Assembly (NCBI GenBank): GCA_945881885.1
Contig: CAMCVI010000005.1
Span: forward strand, 62,001 to 126,000
DNA length: 64,000 nt
Source of the DNA: Chryseobacterium gleum
GTDB taxonomy: Bacteria > Bacteroidota > Bacteroidia > Flavobacteriales > Flavobacteriaceae
Reading direction: 5' to 3'
Part shown: one piece after another, positions 55,806 through 64,000 of the stretch
Position numbering within the stretch: position 1 is the stretch's first letter
How the letters are laid out: each line of letters starts with the position of its first letter
Program-made: the position numbers and the translations under genes
Notes under the pieces: model-generated
Told to the model about the DNA's origin: nothing
What the model saw: only the letters and a program-made list of their open reading frames with translations
Database searches by the model: none

Positions 55806-56633
55806 ATGCGATTTTATATTTTACTTTTATTAAGTGTTACCACATTTAGTTTTGCACAAGAAATAAACGATGCAGAAATTGAACTGGTTAATATTAAAAG
55901 CAAACCAAAAATCGCAACTATTTTAAAAAGATTGAACAAGCAATTGTTAAAAACAACTGATACTACAAGTTTTGAATTCGACTTGCGTCAAATAAATTTA
56001 AAAAATTTTGATACTTTAATTAATAGAAAAGAAGCACAAATTATTAAAATTACTAATTTCAGTAATACTTTTTCAAAAAAAAATTTGATTGAAAATAAAG
56101 ACAATTGGTTTTCAAATTTTAAAGAGATTTTTAAAGCATATAGTTCTGAAGAATCTCCAATTGGATGGCTTTCTGGTTTTCCAATTCGTAAAAATTTAAC
56201 AACTGCCGAATTAGATTTTTTTATTCATCCAAACGGATACGAATTTACCAGAGAATGGTTAGATGATGATGAATTATTGGTAACTTTTGAATCGAAAGGG
56301 TTTTATAAAGGCAATTTTATTGTGGATAAAAATTACAATTTATTGCAATTAAATTATGAAACACAACAACCTTATCCGTTTTTTTATACAAGTGAAGGGA
56401 GTATAGGGAAAAACCATAAATTCACATCAAATTGGATATATCAAAGAGAAAAAGTAGCTATGAATTTTGAAATTGTCAAAAACAAAATGGTTTTAAAATC
56501 CTTAAGTATTGAAGAAAAATTACGCGATTTTACGTTTAAACGATTTGATGAAAAAGGCGTTACTTTCACAGATATCAATCAGTTTTATACGAATATAAAA
56601 TTGGTGAATAAGAAGCTTTCAGAAGAGTATTAA
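55806..56633 (+). CDS. Secreted/periplasmic hypothetical protein
   Basis: Signal peptide MRFYILLLLSVTTFSFAQ; no recognisable domain. Confidence 0.6.
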   Translation: MRFYILLLLSVTTFSFAQEINDAEIELVNIKSKPKIATILKRLNKQLLKTTDTTSFEFDLRQINLKNFDTLINRKEAQIIKITNFSNTFSKKNLIENKDNWFSNFKEIFKAYSSEESPIGWLSGFPIRKNLTTAELDFFIHPNGYEFTREWLDDDELLVTFESKGFYKGNFIVDKNYNLLQLNYETQQPYPFFYTSEGSIGKNHKFTSNWIYQREKVAMNFEIVKNKMVLKSLSIEEKLRDFTFKRFDEKGVTFTDINQFYTNIKLVNKKLSEEY

Positions 56634-56640
56634 AAAGCTA

Positions 56641-56736
56641 ACCACGAATTCTCGAATTAAACGCATTTTTGAAAAATTTGTATCGACCAAGTCGATAATT
56701 AATTCGAATTTACTTTTTTATTTTTTAATTAGTGGC
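56641..56736. repeat. MITE-like dispersed repeat, copy 2
   Basis: ACCACGAATTCTCGAATT...GTATCGACCAAGTCGATAATTAATTCGAATT...AATTAGTGGC. Confidence 0.6.
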
Positions 56737-56745
56737 AATAAAAAA

Positions 56746-57882
56746 TTAAAAAATTCTTTTTATTAACGCTTTAAGAAACAAGCGTTGTGGACACATCCAT
56801 ATGACTTGTAAATCTTCCCAAAAAGTAGTTTCTTCATCTAAAAATTTTAAAATCAATGGTGCTTTTCCGGTTTTAAACATACTTGAAAAAATAGCACTTC
56901 CGTATTGATTTGTTTTAAATAAAATGTCTATCAATAATAAATCGTAAAACCAAAATTTGTTGATTTTATGAAATTTTGTAAAATCATTTTCTGTTCGTAA
57001 AAAAGCTACCAATTTCTTCGATTTTTTTGCCGAATTTTTAAATGTATAGCCTGTACTGGCTTTGCTCCATCCGCCTGCAGAACCAATATTTATAATGTTT
57101 TTGCTGTTGCTTTTCCAGAAAGGAAAACAGGTCATTGGAATATTGCCTTGTTCTTTTTCTACGATTTCATATTCGGTTATGCCTAATTTTTGAATGTAGT
57201 TTTCAATTTCCGTTTCGTAAGCTTCTTTTGAAAGTAAATCTTTTGAAAACAAAGTATATTCTAACAAAGCTTCAGTTGAAGAAGTTGGTAAAATATACAT
57301 AAATCGCGTATTTCCTTTTTGTGCTATTGAAAAATCCATAAAAGTTGGGCAATCTTCAGTAAAAACGGCTTCTTTACTTTTGATAAACCAACCGATAAAA
57401 TGTTGCTGCACCAGCGGAAATTTAGTTTGCGCGTTTACGAGTTCAGACGAGTAAATGCTGTTGAAAACTTGATTGCAAGTAAACAATTTGGTTTTTGTTT
57501 TTACTAAACAATGGTCGGCTAATTCTTTATAATTGAGAACCTCATCTTGAAAAATTTCAATGTTGGATTGTTGGCTTATTTTATCTAAAATTAATTTATA
57601 AAAATCCGCACTTTTTATCATTTTATAGGAGTACGGAAACAATTCTAGTTGATTTGTGAAATTATCGTTTTTAAACCAAGCTTGTTGCCAATTTTTGGTT
57701 GTAATTTCGTCAAATAAATTTTCGGAATCCCAAAAACACCACGTTCTGTCGTTTTTGTTTTTCGCATCTGAATCTATCAACAGTATTTTTTTATCTGAAA
57801 ATCGACCAGATTGAATCATTTCAAAAAGGGTCAATAATGCCGATAAACCGTTTCCGGTAAATATGTAATGATAGTGTTTCAT
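56746..57882 (-). CDS. crtY: Lycopene beta-cyclase
   Basis: HYIFTGNGLSALLTLFEMI, ILLIDSDAKNKNDRTWCFWD, IPMTCFPFW, NIGSAGGWSKASTGYTF. Confidence 0.9.
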   Translation of the reverse strand: MKHYHYIFTGNGLSALLTLFEMIQSGRFSDKKILLIDSDAKNKNDRTWCFWDSENLFDEITTKNWQQAWFKNDNFTNQLELFPYSYKMIKSADFYKLILDKISQQSNIEIFQDEVLNYKELADHCLVKTKTKLFTCNQVFNSIYSSELVNAQTKFPLVQQHFIGWFIKSKEAVFTEDCPTFMDFSIAQKGNTRFMYILPTSSTEALLEYTLFSKDLLSKEAYETEIENYIQKLGITEYEIVEKEQGNIPMTCFPFWKSNSKNIINIGSAGGWSKASTGYTFKNSAKKSKKLVAFLRTENDFTKFHKINKFWFYDLLLIDILFKTNQYGSAIFSSMFKTGKAPLILKFLDEETTFWEDLQVIWMCPQRLFLKALIKRIF

Positions 57883-57885
57883 GTG

Positions 57886-58626
57886 TTACATTCTGATAGA
57901 AAAACCAAAAGCAGCGTAATAGCTTGGTGCATTTTTAGTAACTCCGAATCCTGATGACAAATCTAACATAAAATTATCATTAATCAAATAGGTTATTCCT
58001 CCATCAATAGAATGATTTGCAGTTGCATTTTCAGGCAAAAATCCAAAAACTTCAATATAACTTCCTATTCTTTCTGACATAGAATAACTTGTTGCAATGG
58101 TATAAATAAATGTCGCTTCGGGCGAGTTTCCGTTCCATTCGCTACCTAAATTATAACTAAACGACATTTTTTCTGAAAGGGTGTGTTGCATTACAAAACG
58201 AAATTCGGCCGCTGTAAATTCATTTTTATATTTTGAAGACGCAAAATTTGGTAATCCGATGTGTCCTATAAATGAAGTTTTAGGGAAAATTCCCTTTTCT
58301 TCAGCAATTTTAATTTTACAACCTACAAGCACCGGGTTTAATCCTGAAATTTCAGAATCAAAATTTTTCTCAATTGAAAATTCAGTGATTAATCGCAATT
58401 CAAAATTTTCGTTGACGCCATATTTCCATAAACTAGATGGCAAAGTTATGGTGTTACTGTTAGCATAGTTTTTTTGAAAACTGAATCCGTTTTCTACTTG
58501 AAACATTTTTTTTGGAACTAAATAAGGTGTTTCTGTTTGGTCAGGTCTATCCGTTTGTATGGATTCATTTTCTTGACTGAAACCAAAAAATGGCAACCAA
58601 ATTATAAATGGTATGATTTTTTTCAT
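57886..58626 (-). CDS. Transporter / outer membrane beta-barrel (Phenol_MetA_deg-like)
   Basis: Signal peptide; ESIQTDRPDQTETPYLVPKKMFQVENGFSF; VNENFELRLITEFS; porin-like C-terminus ending in aromatic/hydrophobic strand. Confidence 0.75.
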   Translation of the reverse strand: MKKIIPFIIWLPFFGFSQENESIQTDRPDQTETPYLVPKKMFQVENGFSFQKNYANSNTITLPSSLWKYGVNENFELRLITEFSIEKNFDSEISGLNPVLVGCKIKIAEEKGIFPKTSFIGHIGLPNFASSKYKNEFTAAEFRFVMQHTLSEKMSFSYNLGSEWNGNSPEATFIYTIATSYSMSERIGSYIEVFGFLPENATANHSIDGGITYLINDNFMLDLSSGFGVTKNAPSYYAAFGFSIRM

Positions 58627-58633
58627 ATATATA

Positions 58634-58655
58634 ATTTTTAGACAAATCTAAAAAT
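58634..58655. promoter_or_regulatory. Candidate metalloregulator operator (perfect palindrome)
   Basis: ATTTTTAGA-CAAA-TCTAAAAAT, 9-bp perfect arms, in the divergent promoter region next to a DtxR-family gene. Confidence 0.6.
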
Positions 58656-58681
58656 ATTTTTTTAAATCCGTAAATTTATTT

Positions 58682-58689
58682 TACATTTG
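58682..58689 (+). promoter_or_regulatory. Putative -7 element TACATTTG for DtxR-family regulator
   Basis: Exact TAnnTTTG match 17 nt before ATG 58707. Confidence 0.5.
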
Positions 58690-58706
58690 CTTTTCAAATA
58701 TACAAA

Positions 58707-59354
58707 ATGACCACTTCTGAAGAAAATTATTTAAAAGTTATTTATCATTTGTCAAACCTATCACCAAAGGGCGTGAATACAAATGCTATTGCGGCTATGT
58801 TAGATACAAAAGCTTCGTCAGTAACAGATATGTTAAAAAAATTATCAGAAAAAGAATGTGTAAATTATCAAAAATACCAAGGTGTTTCATTAACGGAGAA
58901 AGGGAAATTAAATGCCAAAATAATTGTTAGAAAACATCGTTTGTGGGAAGTTTTTTTAGTTGAAAAGCTAGGTTTCGCCTGGGACGAAGTGCATGAAGTT
59001 GCGGAAGAATTAGAGCACATACAATCCGAAAAATTAATCAATCAATTGGATCAGTTTTTAAATTTTCCGAGTTTTGATCCTCATGGCGATCCTATTCCGA
59101 ATGCAAAAGGCGAAATAAAAAAAATAGATAAGCAATTGGTTTCTGAAATTGAAATTGGTAAAACCTTTACTTGTGTGGGTGTAAAAGATACTTCAGTTGA
59201 TTTTTTACAATATTTAAACAAACAAAGCATTTCATTAGGTACAAAAATGAAAGTATTAGAAAAAGAACCTTTCGATGGAACACTTAAAATTGAAATTAAC
59301 AATAGCGTTTTGGTCATATCGGATAAAATAGCAAATAATTTATTTGTAAAATAA
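58707..59354 (+). CDS. Metal-dependent transcriptional regulator (DtxR/MntR family)
   Basis: MTTSEENYLKVIYHLS, AAMLDTKASSVTDMLKKLSEKECVNYQKYQGVSLTEKGK, RKHRLWEVFLVEKLGFAWDEVHEVAEELEH, C-terminal FeoA/SH3-like domain. Confidence 0.93.
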   Translation: MTTSEENYLKVIYHLSNLSPKGVNTNAIAAMLDTKASSVTDMLKKLSEKECVNYQKYQGVSLTEKGKLNAKIIVRKHRLWEVFLVEKLGFAWDEVHEVAEELEHIQSEKLINQLDQFLNFPSFDPHGDPIPNAKGEIKKIDKQLVSEIEIGKTFTCVGVKDTSVDFLQYLNKQSISLGTKMKVLEKEPFDGTLKIEINNSVLVISDKIANNLFVK

Positions 59355-59361
59355 TAAAAAT

Positions 59362-59403
59362 ACAGGTTTTAGGAATTTTAATGATTTCTAAAATCTGTGT
59401 TTT
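59362..59403 (+). terminator. Hairpin between regulator and ZIP transporter (terminator or attenuator)
   Basis: ACAGGTTTTAGGAAT...ATGATTTCTAAAATCTGT, ~15 bp stem with G:U wobbles, followed by TTTT. Confidence 0.6.
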
Positions 59404-59418
59404 AAAAATTAAAATTAA

Positions 59419-60237
59419 ATGTACAACGATTTAATAAAATATTTAGAGGGAATTGACCCTATTTTAGCAGCTCTTTACGCTACTACGTTTACTTGGTTAG
59501 TTACTGCCGCTGGTTCATCTTTAGTTTTCTTTTTTAAAACTATGAGCCGTGCTGTTTTAGACGGAATGTTAGGTTTTACTGGCGGTGTGATGGTAGCGGC
59601 AAGTTACTGGAGTTTATTAGCACCAGCTATAGAAATGAGCGAAGGCGAGGGATTTACAAAAGTAATTCCAGCTGCCTCTGGGTTTTTAATGGGTGCTTTG
59701 TTTTTATTTGCTTTAGATAAAACATTACCACATTTGCATATTAATTTTAAAGAAACAGAAGGCATTAAGTCGCCTTGGCAACGAACTACTTTATTAGTGT
59801 TGGCAATTACTTTACACAATATTCCAGAAGGTTTGGCAGTTGGTGTATTGTTTGGGGGTGTAGCAGCTGGTATTCCTGAAGCATCTATTGCTGGTGCGGT
59901 AACTTTAGCGATAGGTATTGGAATTCAAAATTTTCCTGAAGGAATTGCAGTTTCTATGCCTTTACGACGAATGGGAATGAGTCGTAGAAAAAGTTTTATG
60001 TACGGACAATCGTCTGCCATTGTGGAACCTATTGCGGGCGTTTTTGGCGCGCTTGCTGTAACGTTTTTCACACCAATTTTACCTTATGCCTTAGCTTTTG
60101 CAGCTGGTGCCATGATTTTTGTTGTTGTAGAAGAAGTAATCCCGGAAACGCAACAAGATAAAAATACCGATATTGCGACTTTAGGATTTATTGCAGGATT
60201 TATTGTAATGATGAGTTTGGATGTGGCTTTGGGATAA
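59419..60237 (+). CDS. ZIP family metal transporter
   Basis: LAITLHNIPEGLAVGVLFGG and IGIGIQNFPEGIAVSMPLRRMGMS; ZIP TM4/TM5 signatures. Confidence 0.94.
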   Translation: MYNDLIKYLEGIDPILAALYATTFTWLVTAAGSSLVFFFKTMSRAVLDGMLGFTGGVMVAASYWSLLAPAIEMSEGEGFTKVIPAASGFLMGALFLFALDKTLPHLHINFKETEGIKSPWQRTTLLVLAITLHNIPEGLAVGVLFGGVAAGIPEASIAGAVTLAIGIGIQNFPEGIAVSMPLRRMGMSRRKSFMYGQSSAIVEPIAGVFGALAVTFFTPILPYALAFAAGAMIFVVVEEVIPETQQDKNTDIATLGFIAGFIVMMSLDVALG

Positions 60238-60298
60238 TATTGACCACAATCTTTTATTTCAAAACTAGCTAAGTTTAGAAAAAATCTAAATAAAATAG

Positions 60299-62530
60299 TT
60301 ACAGTTTTAAACCTAAAGAGACATAAAAACTTCGTCCTTCTCCCGGAAGAATTCCTGGTCCCGGATATCCCCCTGCTCTTCTTGTAGCGTAGTTTTTATC
60401 CAAAAGATTGTTTACTCCAACTCTAACATTGTAATGTTTTAAGAATTTATATTCTGAGGAAAAATCCATTACTTGGTATTGCTCTAATTGTCCTGTTAAT
60501 CCATTAGAAGACGCTGCAACTGTATTGTTTGCATCAGTAAAAATTTTACCAGACATTCTGTATTGTAATGTAGAAGAAAAATTATTGTTTCCCCAAGAAA
60601 GACCAAAATTATGTATGTATCTAGGGGCATTTTCAACTCTATTTCCCGTAAGATTGGTTTCTTTAATTATTACATTTGGAGCCGTGCCAGTAGCGCTAAA
60701 AACACTAAAATCAGTATAGCGGCTATCAATGAAACTGATGGATGCAAAAAGATCTAGGTTACCATATGGTTTTTCTATTTGGAAGAAACGTGTAATATTC
60801 AAATTAAAAAAGCCTTCAATTCCTTTATTAATGGTTTCTCCTAAATTTGTTCTGAATAAGAAAGTTCCTTGAGTGGGATCATTATTAATAAATTGTCTAA
60901 CACCACCTATTCTATTATTGTAACTTAAATAAAATAAACTAAAATCAAAATTTAAATAGTTTTTATATGTTCCTCTAAAACCCAAATCCGCATTAAAACC
61001 GCTTGCATCTTTTAAGTTAAGGTCAACTACATCAGTAACTGCTGGCGGGGTAAAATCTGAAAATAATACAGGTCTAAATGCTTGAGTAATATTGGCATAA
61101 ATATTAGTAGATATAAATTTATATTCTAATCCTAATCCAAATAAAGGTTGGTTTCTTGCTATAGATTTAACCGGCATGGCAATGTCGTTACCATTGTTAA
61201 TGCCAAATCTTCCTTCTCCAGTATTTTTAATGTATTCATAACGAACTCCCGGAGTAACACTGAATTTTTCAGACACTTTAAACTGATTTTCTGCAAAAAC
61301 AGCTACATTTTCTGTCGTAAAATCTAAATCTCTTGCATATCTTCCTTCAATTGATAAATTAAAATCAGCACCAGTTGTTCCTTTTCCGTCTTGAACTCGT
61401 TGCGTATTGGCTTTATAAAGTCTGGCTCCGAAAGCAAGATTATTATCTATTTTACCTAGTTTGTATTTATAAATATTTCGATTTTCAATACCGAAATTTT
61501 TATAATAATCACGGTCAACACGTCTATTTGCAAAATCATTAGTAGCAGGGTTAATTACATCTTCAATATTGGGAGTAGCAGTAAATCCTGTGCTATTACG
61601 CTCACCTATTAGTCCAAAAAGTTTGTTATTAGATGAAAAACGGTCGTTGACTTTAGTGTCAAAATTGACAGCAAATACATTCCAAGGTGTACCAAACCAA
61701 TTTCTTTCTCTATTTGATTGTTGTGGGTTATTTTCAAATTGATTATCGGTTAGTCCACCAGCTTGTTCCATTTTGTAGTCCATGTTTGTATATTCTGCTG
61801 TAAGTTTGGTTTTTTCTGTAAAATGGTAAGCTATGAAAGCATGTGTATTTCTGACTGAATAATCACTGTTTTCTCTCCAGCCGTCACCACTTCTCGAATG
61901 ATTGTAAATATAGTATGAAAACCGCTTGTGTTTGCCGCCAATGGCATTATAGCTACTCATTAATCCATAGCTACCCGCCGTATTTTGTGTTTCAAATGAA
62001 AACGGTTTTTTGGTTTCTCTTTTGATTACGTAATTTAACATCCCGCCAAATTGTGGTCCAAATTGAAGTGCTGATCCGCCACGTACTAATTCTATTGTTT
62101 CAACGGCCTCTAAAGGTGGATTATAATATGCTTCAGGATACCCAAAAACATCTGAAGAAATATCGTATCCATTTTGTCGGGTATTCAATTCCCAACTTCT
62201 ATTAGGACTTAAACCACGAACACCTACATTAATTTGTATACCAGAACCCTCATTTTCCCAAATAGTAACTCCAGGAATTCTTGAAAAAATTTCTCTAGCG
62301 TTATTAGTTGTGAAATTTCCATTAATATTAGAAAGTCTTAAAACTTCATTTTTTTTACCCGAAAAAAGAACATTTTCTTTTATTTCTGGCATTCTTTCAG
62401 GACTTTGTTGTTTTGCTTTAATGATAACAGGTTCTATTTTGTAGATGGTATCGGTGCTTGTAACTTTTTGGTTTTGGCTTATTGAAACAACACTAATTAA
62501 TGTGGTTAAGATAATTATTATTTTTTTCAT
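60299..62530 (-). CDS. TonB-dependent receptor (iron-complex/FecA-like)
   Basis: Plug EIFSRIPGVTIWENEGSGIQINVGVRGLSPNRSWELNTRQNGYDISSD; C-terminal NLLDKNYATRRAGGYPGPGILPGEGRSFYVSLGLKL; start at MKKIIIIL. Confidence 0.92.
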   Translation of the reverse strand: MKKIIIILTTLISVVSISQNQKVTSTDTIYKIEPVIIKAKQQSPERMPEIKENVLFSGKKNEVLRLSNINGNFTTNNAREIFSRIPGVTIWENEGSGIQINVGVRGLSPNRSWELNTRQNGYDISSDVFGYPEAYYNPPLEAVETIELVRGGSALQFGPQFGGMLNYVIKRETKKPFSFETQNTAGSYGLMSSYNAIGGKHKRFSYYIYNHSRSGDGWRENSDYSVRNTHAFIAYHFTEKTKLTAEYTNMDYKMEQAGGLTDNQFENNPQQSNRERNWFGTPWNVFAVNFDTKVNDRFSSNNKLFGLIGERNSTGFTATPNIEDVINPATNDFANRRVDRDYYKNFGIENRNIYKYKLGKIDNNLAFGARLYKANTQRVQDGKGTTGADFNLSIEGRYARDLDFTTENVAVFAENQFKVSEKFSVTPGVRYEYIKNTGEGRFGINNGNDIAMPVKSIARNQPLFGLGLEYKFISTNIYANITQAFRPVLFSDFTPPAVTDVVDLNLKDASGFNADLGFRGTYKNYLNFDFSLFYLSYNNRIGGVRQFINNDPTQGTFLFRTNLGETINKGIEGFFNLNITRFFQIEKPYGNLDLFASISFIDSRYTDFSVFSATGTAPNVIIKETNLTGNRVENAPRYIHNFGLSWGNNNFSSTLQYRMSGKIFTDANNTVAASSNGLTGQLEQYQVMDFSSEYKFLKHYNVRVGVNNLLDKNYATRRAGGYPGPGILPGEGRSFYVSLGLKL

Positions 62531-62554
62531 TTTATTTAGATTAATTCTACACAA

Positions 62555-62585
62555 CAAAATTAATTACTTAATCTTATTTAGACAA
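62555..62585 (-). promoter_or_regulatory. Putative promoter of TonB-dependent receptor
   Basis: Minus-strand TTG (62583-62585) - N20 - TAATTTTG (62555-62562). Confidence 0.5.
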
Positions 62586-62761
62586 ATTAAAAATAAACTT
62601 TTTTTAAAGATTTTAAACTTTTAAATATTATTAAATATTTGAGGTAAATTGTAGTATAAAATTAAATTTAATTGTTAATATTTATCCAATTAAATTTAAT
62701 TAAGAACACTTTTTTGAATATTAAAAATGTTGCAAATCTTTTTTTTTTTGAATTAAAGCTA

Positions 62762-62896
62762 TCAATGACAATTACAGTCATCACCGCAACCTTTTTTATT
62801 TGCTTTTTTCTTCCAAAAGAATTTTCTAATCAAAAAAACAATAGCTAAAGTTAGACAGGCGTAGGTTAAAATATCTTGTAAACTCATAAATTCCAT
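62762..62896 (-). CDS. FeoB-associated Cys-rich membrane protein (44 aa)
   Basis: Translated directly: MEFMSLQDILTYACLTLAIVFLIRKFFWKKKANKKGCGDDCNCH*; one TM followed by CGDDCNC; adjacent to feoB; absent from the ORF track because of length. Confidence 0.88.
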   Translation of the reverse strand: MEFMSLQDILTYACLTLAIVFLIRKFFWKKKANKKGCGDDCNCH

Positions 62897-62926
62897 TTTT
62901 AAATTTTAAAATCGGTGTTTAAATAA

Positions 62927-64000
62927 CTATTTCAAACTTTGATACGCAATTAACGCCATAAGATAAGCAAATCCAGTCATAAAAACCAATTGAATAATAG
63001 GCCACTTCCAGGAGTTGGTTTCTTTTTTAACTATGGCAAGCGTACTAACACATTGCATGGCAAAAGTATAAAATAAAAGCAACGAAATACCTGTAGCAAA
63101 ATTGAAAATTTTATTACCATTTGCATCAACATCTTCAGCCATTTTCATTTTTATAGTAGCTTCTTCATCATTCTGATTTCCTACACTATAGATGGTGGCA
63201 AGTGTACCAACAAAAACTTCTCTTACTGCGAAAGAACTTAAAACTGCAATTCCAATTTTCCAATCGTATCCTATAGGTTTGATGACAGGTTCGATTGTTT
63301 TACCCATTATCCCAATATAAGAATTTTCTAATTTGTAAGCAGAAACATGATTTTTTAGTACCGATGGATTTATTTTTTGTTGGCTAGAAAACACCTTTTT
63401 TTCAACTATTTCTTGTGCTTTTTCAAAATTTTGTCCAGGGCCATGGGATCCTAAAAACCATAAAACTACAGAAAAAGCTAAAATTATTTTTCCAGCTCCG
63501 GTTACAAACGCTTTGGTTTTTTCTAAAACATTTAGTGTAACGTTTCTAAATTGAGGCACTTTATAACTTGGCATTTCTACTACAAAATACGATTTACATT
63601 TTAATTTTAGTGCTTTATTTAATATATATGCTGACCCAATTGCCACAAAAAACGCCATTAAATACAAGGCCATTAAAGTTAAACCTTGTAAACTGAAACC
63701 TAAAATTCGTTTTTCTGGAATTATTAATGAAATTATAATAGCATAAACTGGTAATCGAGCGGAACAAGTAATAAAAGGTGTAATTAAAATAGTTATTAAT
63801 CGTTCTTTCCAGTTTTCAATATTTCGGGCGCTCATAATAGCAGGAATAGCACACGCCGTTCCAGAAATTAAGGGCACAATACTTTTTCCTGACAATCCGA
63901 ATTTTCGCATGATTTTATCCATCAAAAACACAACACGACTCATATATCCGCTTTCTTCTAAAACAGAAATAAATAAGAACAAAAAGGCAATTTGTGGAAT
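62927..64000 (-). CDS. feoB: Ferrous iron transport protein B, C-terminal part (N-terminus beyond window)
   Basis: FISVLEESGYMSRVVFLMDKIMRKFGLSGKSIVPLISGTACAIPAIMSARNI; FAVREVFVGTLATIYSVG; frame open to window end. Confidence 0.95.
   Translation of the reverse strand: MPQIAFLFLFISVLEESGYMSRVVFLMDKIMRKFGLSGKSIVPLISGTACAIPAIMSARNIENWKERLITILITPFITCSARLPVYAIIISLIIPEKRILGFSLQGLTLMALYLMAFFVAIGSAYILNKALKLKCKSYFVVEMPSYKVPQFRNVTLNVLEKTKAFVTGAGKIILAFSVVLWFLGSHGPGQNFEKAQEIVEKKVFSSQQKINPSVLKNHVSAYKLENSYIGIMGKTIEPVIKPIGYDWKIGIAVLSSFAVREVFVGTLATIYSVGNQNDEEATIKMKMAEDVDANGNKIFNFATGISLLLFYTFAMQCVSTLAIVKKETNSWKWPIIQLVFMTGFAYLMALIAYQSLK

Follow-up and report, generated by a model that had tools for sequence, protein, structure and literature searches.

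The window, a stretch of 64,000 nucleotides of the Chryseobacterium gleum genome, contains two diverging gene pairs separated by a gap of 80 bp with a GC content of 14%. On the minus strand lies the gene of an outer-membrane 12-stranded barrel of the Phenol_MetA_deg family (57886–58626), assigned by domain match and structural model, followed 3 nt 3' by a lycopene cyclase-like gene (56746–57882) that gene context predicts to be on the same transcript. The plus strand carries dtxR, encoding a DtxR/MntR-family metalloregulator (58707–59354), and, 64 nt 3' of it, the gene of a ZIP-family metal transporter (59419–60237), predicted from its context to belong to the same operon. The original prediction placed a palindromic operator in this gap, and the palindrome ATTTTTAGA-CAAA-TCTAAAAAT, whose two perfectly matched 9-bp arms enclose a 4-nt centre, was indeed found exactly at 58634–58655. 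Its conserved core, TTTAGACAAATCTAAA, occupies 58637–58652 and has the invariant part TTTAG-N6-CTAAA.

Profile, structure-homologue and alignment matches assign an HTH domain, a metal-binding/dimerisation domain and a FeoA domain to the regulator (Pfam Fe_dep_repress, 3.9e-16; Fe_dep_repr_C, 1.4e-31; FeoA, 4.4e-12), and it is the single protein with Fe_dep_repr_C in the genome. The ligands H77, E100, E103 and H104 are invariant in the alignment and include the Glu of the MntR type instead of Cys102 of DtxR, as expected of the MntR-type subgroup; D124 and H126 likewise match MntR/SloR-type sites. The N-terminal Asp ligand is missing, since the window protein and its aligned relatives have Asn7 at the position equal to Asp7 in SloR, D8 in Bacillus subtilis MntR and Met in DtxR, and this makes the choice of metal uncertain. 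The score against the MntR equivalog NF047407 was 153 bits versus a cut-off of 350, and the NCBIfam MntR models matched below their cut-offs. Because the Asp is missing and this position varies in the family, we call the protein MntR-like rather than MntR. The closest solved chain was PDB 5zr4, deposited as a "metal-dependent transcriptional regulator," followed by SloR (5cvi); we take 5zr4 to be Xanthomonas MntR. Since the Glu/Glu/His ligands are of the MntR type and the neighbours are Mn/Zn importers, manganese appears likelier than iron as the co-repressor metal, with iron or mixed sensing possible. Nramp was not found in the window's genome. Several other arrangements were observed among relatives: in some marine genera (L048–L050, L052, L062, and L063) a second DtxR-like gene and FeoB-like genes come after dtxR in place of the ZIP gene, an Algoriphagus ABC-3 permease is fused to a C-terminal Fe_dep_repr_C domain (L071:7358-8650), and one Nramp protein is fused to a C-terminal Usp domain (L003:5658-7529).

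The length of the palindrome was rejected as evidence because it was not significant against shuffles of this AT-rich window. The window contained 13 distinct palindromes with arms of at least 9 bp and spacers of 0–8 nt, several of them terminator-like, versus a mean of 7.8 and a maximum of 12 after shuffling. A palindrome with such arms occurred in 5% of shuffled 80-bp gaps, and the core TTTAG-N6-CTAAA in 0.05%. The argument for an operator depends on conservation, not on palindrome length.

Conservation was counted in 81 loci, comprising 80 with relatives of the regulator and the window itself. In 75 of them, the 300 bp upstream of dtxR contained the exact TTTAG-N6-CTAAA, compared to 5 of 1,600 shuffled upstream regions, although its perfect invariance is overstated, as the core also served to pick the sites. 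Among the remaining loci, the core precedes a co-directional mntH (Nramp) gene located before dtxR in L037 and L068–L070 and a barrel gene located before dtxR in L057, and L053 is truncated. In a phylum-wide search, the core was located 40–74 bp upstream of most dtxR relatives with 47%–62% identity, in other genera and families, and palindromes similar to TTTAGGTATACCTAAA or TTTAAGCATGCTTAAA were found at some relatives of about 40% identity. The site is thus kept across Flavobacteriaceae, in Algoriphagus and in several further families of the same class, as the original prediction had demanded of relatives.

Positions flanking the invariant half-sites are A or T depending on the locus, and at the inner pair 6/11 only 34 of 80 sites have complementary bases; arms that match over all 9 bp, as in the window, are therefore a special case. 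Of the operator first proposed, the site stands, while its essential part is TTTAG-N6-CTAAA and not the complete arms. The same counts bear on a role of the palindrome as an RNA hairpin or terminator. A 9-bp hairpin could form with an energy of -4.5 kcal/mol, but the palindrome lies between divergent genes, and with pair 6/11 matched in the sites just counted and pair 7/10 in 17 of 80, the pairing lacks conservation; the region 56000–63500 gave no Rfam match. We consider this explanation highly improbable. A similar sequence, TTTAGA-AAAAA-TCTAAA, occurs at 60274–60290 in the convergent gap 3' of the ZIP gene; its spacer is 5 nt, unlike that of the operator, and it is probably not a site.

The primary sigma factor of Flavobacterium psychrophilum reads TAnnTTTG at -12 to -5, and the median leader there is 24 nt (PMC9723704). 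An element of this type, TAGATTTG, is embedded in the palindrome on the minus strand (58643–58650), as the original prediction pointed out, and comparison of loci supports the overlap. It is the predicted -7 box of the barrel promoter, with a start at about 58638 and a leader of 12 nt; no -33 box was identified for this minus-strand promoter. On the plus strand, TACATTTG (58682–58689) is the predicted -7 box of the dtxR promoter, with a start at about 58694, and a TAnnTTTG box follows the core by 24–32 bp in most Flavobacteriaceae loci. Numbered from these predicted starts, the core would span about -14 to +2 at the barrel gene and about -57 to -42 at dtxR.

Where the divergent gene encodes a receptor or barrel, the CAAA centre formed a -7 box on the minus strand (TAGNTTTG) in 47 of 53 loci, versus none of 23 loci lacking such a gene (Fisher's exact test, 2.8e-14, uncorrected for relatedness, excluding four loci whose neighbours were called with uncertainty). 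All six exceptions carried their -7 box, TATATTTG or TAAATTTG, 8–9 bp past the core on the receptor side. On the regulator tree, the embedded box and the divergent gene each change about 10 times; in six well-supported independent pairs, the box followed the divergent gene in four and the opposite was seen in none, with two ties (sign test, P = 0.125), too few for significance.

This pattern also concerns the possibility that the site regulates dtxR alone and overlaps the barrel promoter incidentally. Loci without a divergent transporter still have the site upstream of dtxR, for example, L011, L017, L018, and those of Algoriphagus; in Algoriphagus, a ZnuA-type/ABC metal importer comes after dtxR. 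However, the -7 box goes along with the presence of the divergent gene, and copies occur directly upstream of TonB receptor genes with no dtxR adjoining the site (e.g., L122, L125, L141, L154, and L164), and we regard pure autoregulation as very unlikely.

In the window's genome, the only zero-mismatch occurrence of TTTAGRCAAAWCTAAA is this palindrome; six other exact matches to TTTAGANNNNTCTAAA are all within genes, and the window's site was unique among the intergenic exact matches examined. A scan allowing up to two mismatches yielded 85 matches in the genome and 69 in the reversed control, a difference that does not allow weaker sites to be called. A genus scan for TTTAGRCAAANCTAAA in 60 genomes and the window's own returned 70 sites, 20 of them intragenic and 50 intergenic. 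By hand count, 45 of the 50 intergenic copies adjoin dtxR, the Nramp gene (MntH), a ZIP gene, or a divergent TonB receptor or barrel gene. Four of the other five are beside an operon for a di-haem oxidoreductase, a Rieske protein and a porin-like protein, and one is unexplained. The operator-like site directly upstream of a di-haem oxidoreductase (DHOR)-Rieske-porin-like operon was seen in four Flavobacterium genomes (L135, L158, L159, and L186).

The divergent gene, described in the original prediction as outer-membrane transporter-like, does encode a barrel here, while in relatives this slot is usually occupied by a TonB receptor with a CxxC plug, often followed by a thioredoxin-like gene. 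The CxxC motif, mostly CNVC or CNIC, was present in 59 of 59 long receptor homologues tested. The window's genome encodes no close homologue of this receptor, the best matches being only 24%–34% identical. On the regulator tree, the barrel label changes six times, and close sisters can differ in having a receptor or a barrel (e.g., L013/L016 and L010/L014). Barrel-like genes point in the same direction as the dtxR and ZIP genes in L056, L057, and L061; the barrels of L056 and L061 are only 26%–27% identical, which makes these cases weak. The structural model of the window protein was a confident 12-stranded barrel (pLDDT 84.6), closest in fold to FapF and COG4313 channels, a generic 12-stranded likeness at 8%–13% identity that gives no clue to a metal. 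The modelled fold says channel, not substrate. The metal role that had been attributed to the Phenol_MetA-like barrel draws its support from gene context, that is, from the operator slot it shares with the TonB receptor.

In about 39 of 45 cases, the lycopene cyclase-like gene came next in the same direction, behind a receptor, thioredoxin-like, barrel or unassigned gene and mostly within 65 nt of it, and in L001, L007, L024, and L056, which lack a slot gene, it is itself the divergent neighbour of dtxR. If co-transcribed, it would be under the same operator.

Control of iron uptake was considered as well, with the palindrome serving as an iron box of Fur. The genome encodes one Fur, the only other FUR/DtxR-type regulator found, and feoAB and an iron-type TonB receptor gene lie close by, with promoters carrying the related half-site TCTAAATAA. 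Nevertheless, the core is associated with dtxR, Nramp, and ZIP genes, it is missing at the neighbouring feoA and at the window's TonB receptor gene, and none of the feoA upstream regions examined in relatives contained TTTAG-N4 to 8-CTAAA; they share instead an element similar to TTAATTNAATCTAAATAA just after the -7 box, with one exact match in the window's genome (G000:C5:127275-127290). Membership of feoAB in the regulon was rejected because of this different element. A near-match upstream of the window's TonB receptor gene (62577–62592) was likewise discarded, as homologous promoters share an element similar to TTATTTNTAATTTGTCTAAATAA instead; the exact core was found upstream of none of 12 homologues, which have a TTTGTCTAAATAA-type element in common. 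Fur binding at the palindrome is accordingly improbable, and the neighbouring iron genes look like they are under separate, possibly Fur, control. The TCTAAATAA-type elements conserved in the TonB receptor and feoA promoters are distinct from the operator and could perhaps be Fur boxes.

We conclude that 58634–58655 is very probably the operator for the MntR-like DtxR-family repressor encoded next to it, which would repress the divergent transporter operon and regulate its own gene. As in the original prediction, the palindrome is assigned to the neighbouring regulator, and this assignment is supported by conservation of the core, the gene associations and the pattern of -7 overlap: a promoter-overlapping palindrome stands at a metal-uptake gene and is conserved together with the regulator. 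From these features we infer binding, the metal and the direction of regulation as follows. When manganese, or possibly iron, is sufficient, the metal-loaded dimer would bind TTTAG-N6-CTAAA. Since the core covers the -7 box of the promoter shared by the barrel and lycopene cyclase-like genes, RNA polymerase would be excluded. At the plus-strand dtxR-ZIP promoter, the core adjoins the -33 region, and binding there would make the regulator control its own gene, again most likely by repression. When metal is limiting, the apo-protein would leave, and both the outer-membrane channel and the inner-membrane ZIP importer would be made.

A wider proposal can be made more tentatively, and we would not yet favour it: the MntR-like repressor may control manganese entry across the outer membrane through interchangeable devices, either the CxxC-plug TonB receptor or a small passive 12-stranded barrel, and the common transcript may tie the lycopene cyclase-like, carotenoid gene to manganese status. 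The barrel, annotated as a phenol degradation protein, thereby offers a testable case of such a protein serving metal uptake, and the locus suggests a tie between manganese status and carotenoid synthesis. For the flavobacterial metal regulon, TTTAG-N6-CTAAA with its embedded -7 box is a concrete, searchable operator.

An operator of a DtxR-family protein beside its regulator gene is known. The operator of TroR, a Mn/Fe-dependent DtxR-family repressor of Treponema, is a palindrome that overlaps the promoter in T. pallidum (PMC2628430); by description, it is of the same palindromic, promoter-overlapping type, with different gene content. In the open literature searched, which leaves most subscription journals and regulon databases outside, the operator sequence described here did not turn up, nor did its embedded -7 box or the gene set, and open papers searched contained no description of the barrel-for-receptor swap or of the downstream co-directional lycopene cyclase-like gene. 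At the protein level, regulators of the MntR/SloR/ScaR type (5zr4 and SloR 5cvi) show the same full-length homology, including the FeoA-type C-terminal domain, and 5zr4 has in common with the window protein the His/Glu/Glu/His ligands and the DPHGDPIP motif. The window protein differs from this type by Asn7, where SloR has Asp, and by the Bacteroidota TAnnTTTG promoters.

In Stenotrophomonas maltophilia, an MntR box is located between the promoter elements of a gene for a CQNC-plug TonB receptor and a thioredoxin-fold gene, near mntR and mntH (PMC13217887). By motif and gene content, this MntR-controlled TBDR-pTFP module resembles the arrangement at the operator in relatives of the window, in which a receptor with a CNVC or CNIC plug is often accompanied by a thioredoxin-like gene, whereas the window species has a small barrel in place of the receptor. 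The CQNC module itself is absent at the window locus, the relatives having CNVC, CNIC, or a similar CxxC rather than CQNC, and the taxa named in the synteny figure of that paper include no Bacteroidota. Within this phylum, the DtxR-family PgMntR of Porphyromonas gingivalis binds the promoter of its own Mn transporter operon, and Mn strengthens the binding (PMC4805248). The portion of that paper's text that was searched defines no palindrome for PgMntR, which differs from the window protein, with its one FeoA domain, by a second FeoA domain and a link to FeoB2. PgMntR is the Bacteroidota precedent for Mn-enhanced binding of such a regulator to its own transporter promoter.
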